DNA from: a virus
Virus record (IMG/VR): IMGVR_UViG_3300028025_000133
Location: 1 to 26,418 of that record
DNA length: 26,418 bases
Strand: one strand, 5' to 3'
Positions within the stretch are counted from its first letter, which is position 1; each line of letters opens with the position of its first letter. The position numbers and the translations under genes are program-made. Positions 12,210 through 24,739 of this stretch are shown here, piece by piece. The notes under the pieces are model-generated. The model saw only the letters and a program-made list of their open reading frames with translations. It had not been told where the DNA came from and did no database searches.

Positions 12210-13193
12210 ATGACCACAAAGCCAATTGACATTATCAGCCGAGCGTTAAAGGATATTGGCGCACTTGAAGGCGGCGAAACGCCTACACCAGACGCAACGC
12301 AAGATGCGTTTGATATGTTGAACGACCTTGTAGACCAATGGTCCAACGAAAACATGATGGTGTTTAACGTCACGGAAATCATTTTTCCCGTGATACCTGG
12401 TCAAATTCAATACAGCCTTGGACCATATCCGCAAACGACCAACTTCATTGGTGCATCGTTTCAAGGCTCAATTTCTGGCGACATTCTGACCGTCACAACT
12501 GTTAATTCAGGCGCTGTGGCACAAGGTCAACTGTTAAGCGGTGGCGGCATTGTTGCTGGCACACGCATTACCCTAGAAATTACTGGTGCTGGCGGTAACG
12601 TCTTGCAAGCTGGTACATATCGGGTAAGCATCCCGCAAACTGTGGCGACCACAACAATCACGGCAAACTATCAAAAGCCTTTAGGCATTGATTCAGCGTT
12701 TGTTCGCGTGAACACAACGTCTAATGGTCAACCAATTCAAGGCGGCGGTTTGGACTATCCAATTTCTGTTTTGTCGTTGCAAGACTATCAAATGATTGGC
12801 TTGAAAACGCTAAACGGTCCTTGGCCTAAAGCGGTTTATTACAACCCTAATGAAGAATCAGCAAACTTGTTTGTTTGGCCTAACCCTTCTCAGGGTGAAA
12901 TGCACTTGTTTGCAAACACTTTGTTTACGCGCTACGGCAGTCTTTATGAGGATGTTGTTTTGCCACAGGGTTACACAATGTGCCTGCGCTGGTGTTTGGC
13001 TGAACGTTTGATGCCTATGTACGGCAAAGCAAATCAAATCCAAATTGCCATGATTCAGCAATATGCTGCGCAAGCCAAAGCCACTTTGAAGCGCACAAAT
13101 ATGTCGCCGCTTCAAGTTGCGCGTTACCCTGATGCTCTGCTGGTTGGCAAAGCTAAAGACGCTGGCTGGATTCTTACTGGCGGTTTCATTTAA
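12210..13193 (+). CDS. Tail accessory / head-to-tail connector protein, P22 gp4-like, enlarged
   Basis: P22 gp4 has 166 residues and binds below the portal to start tail assembly. This product has 327. Residues 1-80 ([20 protein letters not shown], then [16 protein letters not shown]) and 155-327 ([16 protein letters not shown], then [35 protein letters not shown] and the end GWILTGGFI) have the family pattern. In between, residues 81-154 are an inserted beta-rich module that also occurs twice in the next gene. AAGG precedes ATG with 6 bases of spacing. The position before gp10 agrees with P22. The insertion explains part of the size; the core may also be larger than in P22. Confidence 0.85.
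12450..12671 (+). repeat. Beta-rich inserted module, copy 1 (in gp4-like gene)
   Basis: Codons 81-154 of the gp4-like gene encode the pattern GSISGxxLTVTxVxSG, QxxxGxGI, TxITxxxxGxG, GTYxVSxxQTV. The same order recurs at 13593-13799 and 13806-14012. It reads as a small Ig-like or beta-sandwich domain. Confidence 0.85.
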
Positions 13194-13202
13194 AGGACTG
13201 AT

Positions 13203-15185
13203 ATGCCTGATTTTGGCTTTGTTGGCCCAAGTTATGAAGCACCAAGCATTTACCAAGATGCTCAAGAGTGCATTAACTTCTTTCCTGAGATTGACCCGCT
13301 AAAGCAGCCTGGCACTAACGGTGTTGTGGCTCTGTACCCTACGCCTGGACTTACCTTAAAAGCTGTCTTGCCTAACACGCAAGAAGTGCGTGGTATGCAC
13401 ACCGTTTCTGGCGGCTCACAGATGATTGTTGTGTCAGGCCCGTATGTTTACGCGCTGACTTCTAACCTTGTTCCATCTGTTATTGGTGTTTTGAATTCAT
13501 CTGCTGGTCAGGTAAAAATTACCGACAACGGTGTGAACGTCTATTTGGTAGATGGTGCTTATCGTTACACATGGCGCATTTCTAGCCCTGCCAACGCTGT
13601 TTTTACAGGTTCTGTAAGCTCAACTACCTTAACCGTTACAAGTGTTTCTAGCGGCACTTTGGCTGTTGGTCAATCGCTTTACGGCATTGGCGTTGCTGAT
13701 GAAACTGTCATTACTGCATTGGGTACAGGCACTGGCGGCGCTGGCACTTATACGGTCAACGTTTCACAGACTGTTGCCGCTTCAAGTTTGAATTCCACTG
13801 CTACTGGAGCAACATTTACTGCCACGATTACTGGCACGACAATGACTGTCGCATCTGTTGCTTCTGGCACTATTTACTTAGGTCAGACCATTCAAGGCGT
13901 TGGCGTTACTGCTGACAGCGTGGTTACTGCATTAGGAACTGGCACTGGCGGCGTTGGCACTTACACGTTAAGCGTGGCAAGTACGGTTGTTGTTGGCGTG
14001 ACCATGTACGCAATTAGCTTTTCCATTTTGCCGTCTACGGACGGTGCGTTTAGCGGTGCTAACACCGTTGACGTAATGGACAACTATATTGTTTACAACA
14101 ACCCAACAACTCAACAATGGGGGTCTACTGACCTTCTTTCGCCTATTTCGCCAACTACTAGCTATTCGCTAAAAGATGGCGCACCTGACGATTTGGTGGC
14201 TTTGATTGTTGACCACCGTGAAGTTTATTTGTTGGGTGAAATTTCATCTGAAGTGTGGACTGATGTTGGCTCTGTACCTTTCCCGTTCCAACGCATCCCT
14301 GGCACTTCTACCCAACACGGCTGCGCTGCGCCGTTTTCATTGGCTAGATTTGGAAATTCGTTTGCTTACGTTTCGCGCAACAACCGTGGTCAAGCGCAAA
14401 TCATGCAAATGAAAGGCTACGTGCCTGAACGCATTTCTACTCACGCTGTTGAGAATTCCATCACAAATCAATATATTGATGATGCAATTGCTTGGACATA
14501 CCAGCTTGAAGGCCATGAAATCTATGTTGTGACGTTTCCAACGTTAAACCTTACATGGGCTTACGACATTGCTTCAGGTATGTGGCACAAGTGGCTTTAC
14601 ACCGCTGACGACAACTCTTATCAGCGTCACCGTGGTAATTGCTGCGCTGTGTTTCAAGGGATGGTCTTGGTTGGCGACTATGAAAACGGTCGCATTTACG
14701 AACTAGACAAGAAAAACTACACAGACAACGGGCAAAAAGTCCGTAGACTGCGCCGCGCACCGCATTTGGTGACTGACTATCAGCGTCAGTATTTTGACGA
14801 GTTGCAGATTCAGTTCCAGCCTGGCGTTGGCACAACTGGTTTTTCTGTGCCAAACGGACTTACCTACATTGGCGACCCTTATTACATCTTGCCTGATGGC
14901 AGTCTTGTAATTGCGCCTGATAATACTTTGTATCTTGGCAAGACCTTGAATGATGAAACTGTCACGACCGACCCGCAAGCAATGTTGCGCTGGTCTAATG
15001 ACGGTGGTTCTACTTGGTCAAAAGAATATTGGGTTGGCATTGGCAAATTGGGCAAATACCGCAATCGTGCCATTTGGCGCAGATTGGGCATGGCGCGTGA
15101 CCGTGTGTTTGAAGTGTCGATTACTGACCCTGTCAACGCAGTCATTATTGGCGCTAACTTAAAAGCAAGTGGTGGAGCAAACTAA
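13203..15185 (+). CDS. Packaged DNA stabilization protein, P22 gp10-like, enlarged
   Basis: P22 gp10 has 472 residues and plugs the tail below gp4 to keep DNA inside. This product has 660. The start ([20 protein letters not shown], then FFPE and LYPTPGL), the middle ([17 protein letters not shown], then [20 protein letters not shown]) and the end ([47 protein letters not shown]) follow the family pattern of a beta-propeller-like protein. Residues 131-270 are two tandem copies of the module also found in the gp4-like protein. They interrupt a strand pair between YRYTWRIS and [15 protein letters not shown] at 13193-13197 gives the start. The stop overlaps the next ATG. Confidence 0.88.
13593..14012 (+). 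repeat. Beta-rich inserted module, tandem copies 2 and 3 (in gp10-like gene)
   Basis: Codons 131-199 and 202-270 carry the same 69-residue pattern as each other. TALGTGTGG followed by GTYT occurs in both. The DNA of the two copies differs at many third positions, so they are old or separately acquired. Confidence 0.9.
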
Positions 15186-24110: not shown

Positions 24111-24440
24111 TCACAGCGTTTTTCCAATTTCTGCTGCTGCTCTTACGATTGCTCGGCGGGTTGCTGCGTATGTGTCATTGTTTACTTCGCTATGCCACAC
24201 AGTTATTTCATCTTGATAATCTACTTTTGGAGCAAAAGTTCTGCAAACGCTTACATATGAACCATAAGCACCAACAATCAAGTTCAACTTTACAGCCAAA
24301 CGCAACGCATCACCATCGTCTGTTAGTGGGTTCCAATAGTCTTGTTCATCTGCCCAATCCAAAGCAAATACGTCACCAACAAGGCCACCCTCAATTCCAG
24401 CCGCCTTTGCAGCCAGTTCTAGCTGTTCTTTATCTGTCAT
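24111..24440 (-). CDS. Conserved phage protein of unknown function (WNPLTDDGDALRLAVKL type)
   Basis: The product has 109 residues. The first part (DKEQLELAAKAAGIEGGLVG) is a helix, then DYWNPLTDDGDALRLAVKLN, the strongest signature, and the end (AATRRAIVRAAAEIGKTL). These three blocks in this order are frequent in small proteins of proteobacterial phages and prophages, near recombination or replication genes. No function is known to me. AGGA lies 6 bases before ATG 24440. The start overlaps the stop of the winged-helix gene (ATGA). Confidence 0.75.
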   Translation of the reverse strand: MTDKEQLELAAKAAGIEGGLVGDVFALDWADEQDYWNPLTDDGDALRLAVKLNLIVGAYGSYVSVCRTFAPKVDYQDEITVWHSEVNNDTYAATRRAIVRAAAEIGKTL

Positions 24441-24739
24441 AGCAAATCCTGTTGAAAAGGTTTAAACCGCCATTCACGCTCTTGCCTTCCGCTAAGTGAT
24501 TCAACTGTTTTACCTGTTAGTTCAATCAAATCAAGTTTCTGAAGCTCGTTCATACGTCTTGCTACTTGATTGCTTTGAAGACCTGTGTGCATGGCAATGC
24601 CATCTTTGCCCATTGGGCCAAAACGTTGCAATGCAGCCACAATGACTTCTTGGTGCATTTTGGCTACGTCTTTGATTGAATCAGCCGCCTTGAAGCTGGT
24701 GATTGCGTCTGTTGCTCTTGCTCGTATAAATTTAAACAT
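24437..24739 (-). CDS. Winged helix-turn-helix DNA-binding protein
   Basis: The product has 100 residues. Residues about 28-90 follow the wHTH plan: a helix (KMHQEVIVAALQRFGPMG), then KDGIAMHTGLQSNQVARRMN (turn and recognition helix), then ELQKLDLIELTGKTVESLSG (wing) and a final strand (EREWRFKPF). The helix-turn-helix resembles MarR-like domains used in phage early regions. It may regulate the minus-strand operon or help replication. AGGA lies 6 bases before ATG 24739. It is separated from the upstream SSB-like gene by 113 bases, the largest gap in this operon. Confidence 0.75.
   Translation of the reverse strand: MFKFIRARATDAITSFKAADSIKDVAKMHQEVIVAALQRFGPMGKDGIAMHTGLQSNQVARRMNELQKLDLIELTGKTVESLSGRQEREWRFKPFQQDLL

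Follow-up and report, generated by a model that had tools for sequence, protein, structure and literature searches.

A widespread, unnamed beta module inserted in the adaptor and hub of a P22-like phage, probably as a tail decoration

The P22-like tail encoded in virus record IMGVR_UViG_3300028025_000133 raises the question of why two neighbouring tail proteins carry the same small segment, where each obtained it, and what it does on the particle. The window, by which we mean the whole stretch of DNA analysed, comprises 26,418 bases of this record and holds a P22-like structural cassette of portal, coat, gp4-like adaptor, gp10-like hub, and DNA-ejection protein. The gp4-like head-tail adaptor (327 aa; 12210..13193, + strand) belongs to the P22 gp4-like adaptors by both sequence and fold: it matches phrog_12985 among the PHROG profiles (E 6e-39) and PF24175 (SU10_adaptor) above the Pfam cut-off (E 1.7e-7), and Foldseek matches its model to the phage adaptors of cyanophage A4, DEV, KHP30, and SU10 (E 4e-6 to 1e-3). 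The next gene, directly adjacent with no gene between, encodes a gp10-like tail hub or head closure protein (660 aa; 13203..15185, + strand) which, judged by its sequence outside the insert, belongs with P22 gp10 and head closure protein Hc3, matching phrog_578 over residues 4-544 (E 1.6e-97) and the needle head protein of cyanophage Pam1 (7eeq, E 1.4e-13). Core family, gene order, and fold are common to these two proteins and the P22 gp4 adaptor and gp10 hub, whose lengths, given as 166 and 472 aa in the first-pass annotation, are too short to hold the segments described here. Elsewhere in the window, a small ORF on the - strand (24437-24739) has a weak CARF-like PADLOC match (E 7e-4, 17 bits) that is probably due to chance.

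The segment is a module of about 67 residues, present once in gp4 (residues 81-154; 12450..12671, + strand) and as a tandem pair in gp10 (copy 1, residues 131-199, 13593..13799; copy 2, residues 202-270, 13806..14012; both + strand). The first-pass annotation had proposed that one pattern is common to these three stretches; they translate as it described, and every pairing lies 11-18 standard deviations above shuffled sequences. Local BLOSUM62 scores are 192 between the two gp10 copies (shuffle maximum 89, z = 18.4), 140 between the gp4 copy and gp10 copy 1 (64, z = 14.9), and 116 between the gp4 copy and gp10 copy 2 (67, z = 11.1). A profile of the module recovers the gp4 copy at residues 81-151 (81.5 bits) and the gp10 copies at residues 131-197 (95.2 bits) and 202-268 (81.8 bits). 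Across all 11,756 ORFs in the loci surveyed it finds 626 domains, with 0 matches when the same 11,756 ORFs are reversed or locally shuffled.

All three copies are true insertions. The gp4 module occupies a loop that links two strands, after a conserved YTIGP stretch in the alignment with phage homologues, while in gp10 the copies had been described as separating YRYTWRIS from a following 10-residue stretch, and homologues without the pair indeed join these two directly. Homologues without modules align cleanly on both sides of the gp4 and gp10 sites, and one gp10 (locus L082) is about 60% identical to that of the window, yet is without the module pair. Were the modules an ordinary core of the gp4 and gp10 folds, no such homologues would be expected; module-free forms, mostly of ~237 aa for gp4 and of 475-490 aa for gp10, already refute this reading, to which we give practically no weight. 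The modules are thus discrete inserts outside the core, missing from many relatives, as had been supposed, with 72 P22-like loci without a module in either protein.

Copy numbers across the 278 loci with both genes complete form a stepped series. Written as gp4 copies, gp10 copies, the states are 0,0 (72 loci), 1,0 (72), 1,1 (2), 1,2 (113), 1,3 (9), 2,0 (7), 2,2 (1), and 2,3 (2), counts that should not be read as frequencies, since the searches supplying the loci were selected for differing similarity, and in which a third gp10 "copy" is often copy 2 split by another insert. Both proteins carry copies in 127 of the 278, and gp10 copies occur without a gp4 copy in 0 of the 278. In L325, L322, L154, L328, and L329, gp4 has 394-398 aa and two tandem module copies. 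Longer tblastn spans of 2.75 kb were considered as longer gp10 genes, and are taken instead as cross-matches to the gp4 module. A FastTree phylogeny built from gp10 cores stripped of their modules shows a single change in gp4 state and a single change in gp10 state, with the gp10 gain nested inside a clade already holding the gp4 module. The gp4 module therefore came first and the gp10 pair later, each by a single event, so that this order is one observation and sets no rule. Presence and absence at a fixed site in alignable homologues identify a mobile insertion, although each protein changes state only once on the sampled tree; within the lineage, then, the insert has not been hopping in and out.

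If gp4 acquired the module first and the gp10 gene lies beside it, the gp10 copies could have been duplicated from their neighbour, possibly in an old event whose signal has decayed. The first-pass annotation had favoured such spread by recombination between adjacent genes, and homing-endonuclease-like genes found between gp4 and gp10 in several relatives suggest that this boundary may be recombination-prone. These genes, with HNH, zf-His_Me_endon, or NUMOD3 motifs, lie at L001:4352-5005, L006:4399-4995, L005:4327-4995, L122:5000-5605, and L346:3379-3993. The copies themselves argue against it. Within a single phage, gp4 and gp10 copies are 50.0% and 48.2% identical, no more than those of different phages (48.9% and 47.8%) or than gp4 copies are to the modules of unrelated proteins (48.5%). 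Same-position copies share 64-70% identity. At the DNA level, the gp4 and gp10 copies in the window are only 59-61% identical. On a tree of the modules, poorly resolved with its 67 columns, the first gp4 copies group in a single clan, outside which the gp10 copies lie mixed with copies from other proteins. Neither this tree nor the comparison of same-phage with different-phage identity supports recent gene conversion between gp4 and gp10, and the proposal of spread between the two genes was not sustained. Local copying is consequently improbable, and independent acquisition of the gp4 and gp10 copies is the simpler reading of their sequences.

What kind of domain was acquired is suggested by structure prediction. 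That the modules fold separately had been anticipated, and an AlphaFold2 model of the gp10 pair with short flanks (mean pLDDT 89.9) bears this out, with two small, confident domains, each all beta, at pLDDT 92-97 within the modules. In the gp4 model (mean pLDDT 79.7), the module spans residues 81-153 between strands 67-70 and 157-167. For gp10 module 2, the top of the PDB list is chain 1 of 8eci, from Arthrobacter phage Bridgette (Z 7.7, rmsd 1.7 Å, 64 residues, 33% identity); Foldseek gives this chain a probability of 0.99 and an E-value of only 0.21, in a search of the module against the PDB in which no E-value falls below 0.05. PDB sequence searches with the module pair or its profile returned chance matches only, and not this chain. 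The capsid cement proteins of Bridgette are reportedly dimeric (PMC13033339), and 8eci chain 1 is probably one of them. It probably has the same fold as the module. Like the module it is part of a phage particle, but it is a separate chain of 124 aa where the window module is an insert within tail proteins; the two likely belong to one family. Most of the best 50 rows are barrels like domain 2 of EF-Tu (Z 5.8-7.0, rmsd 2.2-3.0 Å, 66-71 residues), where a Z under 8 may reflect just a common arrangement, so that resemblance of the predicted fold to EF-Tu domain 2 is likely, not certain; the translation-protein barrels differ from the module in function and setting. Foldseek rows to EF-Tu over ~200 columns, with an rmsd of 14-15 Å, were set aside in favour of VIA alignments over ~70 residues. 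No Ig family profile in Pfam or NCBIfam matches the module, antibody chains reach a Foldseek probability of 0.04 or less against its model, and the VIA rows contain no Ig-fold chain, although absence from either list excludes nothing. Among viral models, matches include a P22 gp10 from an uncultured phage, an HK97 capsid protein, and a repeat protein of side tail fibres. The giant virus Indivirus ILV1 contributes two further matches, both collagen-repeat proteins (BFVD A0A1V0SCQ2 and A0A1V0SDM6_2; 33-39% identity).

The module is found far beyond this tail. With a consensus query, at least 454 stretches were confirmed in viral contigs, and contigs of bacterial genomes gave 34 loci, many of which are probably prophage. 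At least 58 proteins other than gp4 and gp10 carry it, in one to five copies each, and the profile search against phage proteins places the same family in many other virion proteins, among them a tail sheath (L180), a capsid protein (L174), cement or minor capsid proteins (L172, L178), a DUF2612 structural protein (L169), virion structural proteins (L145, L156), and a tail fibre (L170). Outside phages, it occurs in a GH5 cellulase of Roseicella (L167) and in a 2286-residue protein of a Bacteroidota bacterium with GEVED, fn3, and secretion-tail parts (L187). Adhesion modules and carbohydrate-binding modules, too, are typically found in settings such as secreted bacterial enzymes and GEVED-fn3 proteins. 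Pfam and NCBIfam hold no curated model covering the module, and matches of the gp4 copy to FeoA (Pfam, E 0.088) and PRK04612 (NCBIfam, E 0.02) were treated as chance. PHROG 38233 (tail fiber protein) and PHROG 21413 (unknown function) both contain the module, but these are long whole-protein profiles that cover much else and do not delimit it as a domain. When the module pair of the window was compared by tblastn with 50,697 phage records, nothing matched, probably because its biased composition was masked as low complexity; the module consensus matched four phage records, and profiles on ORFs were used in place of tblastn for the module survey.

Once in place, the module is maintained by purifying selection and evolves slightly faster than the proteins that carry it: in low-dS pairs, dN/dS is 0.083 for the gp4 module and 0.11 for the gp10 modules, compared with 0.069 and 0.081 for the respective cores, and these values give no sign of diversifying selection on the module. 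The sites also accept other material. A second module kind (GTGYAVNDTVTVLGG...; phrog_32129/phrog_9703) interrupts gp10 copy 2 or adjoins copy 1, an insert within an insert, at gp10 residues ~240-350 of L142, L144, L162, and L163 and also in the gp10 of L141 and L159. Alignment and a length survey define a second variable insertion site in gp10, distinct from the module (residues 544-589; 14832..14969, + strand), which is about 40 aa longer in the window than in L082, and which ranges from 10 to 364 residues among relatives between FQPGVG and DPQAMLRWS. The 364-residue insert, in L159, contains an alpha/beta-hydrolase (esterase-like) domain. Because the site of the module takes another module and an insert of 364 residues is hard to place except outside, we infer that the gp10 loops are exposed and that the modules lie on the surface of the assembled tail. 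The gp4 of Xanthomonas phage PBR31 (L085:5045-5998) has a different, GIPAG-type insert at the gp4 module site (residues ~75-146), which hhalign relates to the module with P 6e-4 and a probability of only 29%.

The explanation that we consider probable is that the module belongs to an autonomous beta-domain family inserted in exposed loops of virion proteins, and that its copies here are surface ornaments of the tail. A small domain without a name has entered turns between strands in many unrelated virion proteins and, in this lineage, the gp4 adaptor received one copy first and the gp10 hub a tandem pair afterwards. The cores would build the portal-tail junction as in P22, with the modules projecting from it. 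P22 has 12 copies of gp4 and 6 of gp10, and with these numbers some 24 modules would surround the tail neck. The analogy with phage Ig-like domains suggests a function, in which numerous weak contacts with polysaccharide on the host surface could keep the virion at the cell while it adsorbs. Weak glycan contact is the function that we tentatively rank as most likely, with cementing next. The conserved positions, mostly glycine, threonine, and tyrosine, look structural, which counts against a glycan role, and the lack of diversifying selection counts against a specificity-determining receptor binder, which might show such selection.

Cementing would have the gp4 and gp10 modules touch each other or their neighbours and stabilise the portal-tail joint, with host contact incidental. 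It is rather less likely, but draws on the nearest solved structure being a chain of the capsid structure of Bridgette, with its dimeric cement proteins (PMC13033339), on strong purifying selection, and on gp10 copies being found only alongside a gp4 copy. This last point is weakened by the order of gain depending on just two events, and the 72 loci in which gp4 alone carries the module imply that the gp10 copies are not needed for that of gp4; its occurrence in secreted bacterial proteins likewise fits poorly with a clamp. A module tolerated because it folds by itself and fits turns, with no function of its own, would explain its insertion at turns of many unrelated proteins. We regard such a neutral spacer as unlikely in view of a dN/dS of ~0.1 and of 0 losses on the tree of the two-protein clade, though resemblance to module-bearing proteins was one reason for choosing the loci. 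The stepwise series of loci with no module, with gp4 alone, and with gp4 and gp10 together provides natural comparisons for learning the role of such ornaments.

In our assessment, the module is a widespread, unnamed decoration module that behaves like the Ig-like domains of phages. Promiscuous surface domains of virions are already known; this family is without a name or a curated model, and a definition of it would allow stretches of many virion proteins to be annotated. More speculatively, and with some doubt, this undefined non-Ig barrel family could be a second general surface add-on of tailed phages, inserted independently in adaptor, hub, sheath, capsid, cement, and fibre, also present in secreted bacterial enzymes and adhesins and perhaps in giant-virus proteins, and binding polysaccharide weakly. 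Ig-like domains have been reported from about a quarter of tailed phages (PMC7602432, PMC13033339), in tail fibres, baseplate wedge initiators, decoration proteins, and the major proteins of tail and head (PMC7602432). In phage Douge, those of the capsid and tail tube proteins bind host glycans (PMC13033339), a property demonstrated for the Douge domains and extended to the module by analogy only. The best structural matches of the module are EF-Tu domain 2-like barrels, in contrast to the Ig sandwiches of the phage domains. The two are nevertheless alike in being small autonomous beta domains on head, tail, and fibre proteins whose presence varies among relatives (PMC7602432, PMC13033339), and the module, which is easily missed in searches, seems to play a similar part with a different fold.
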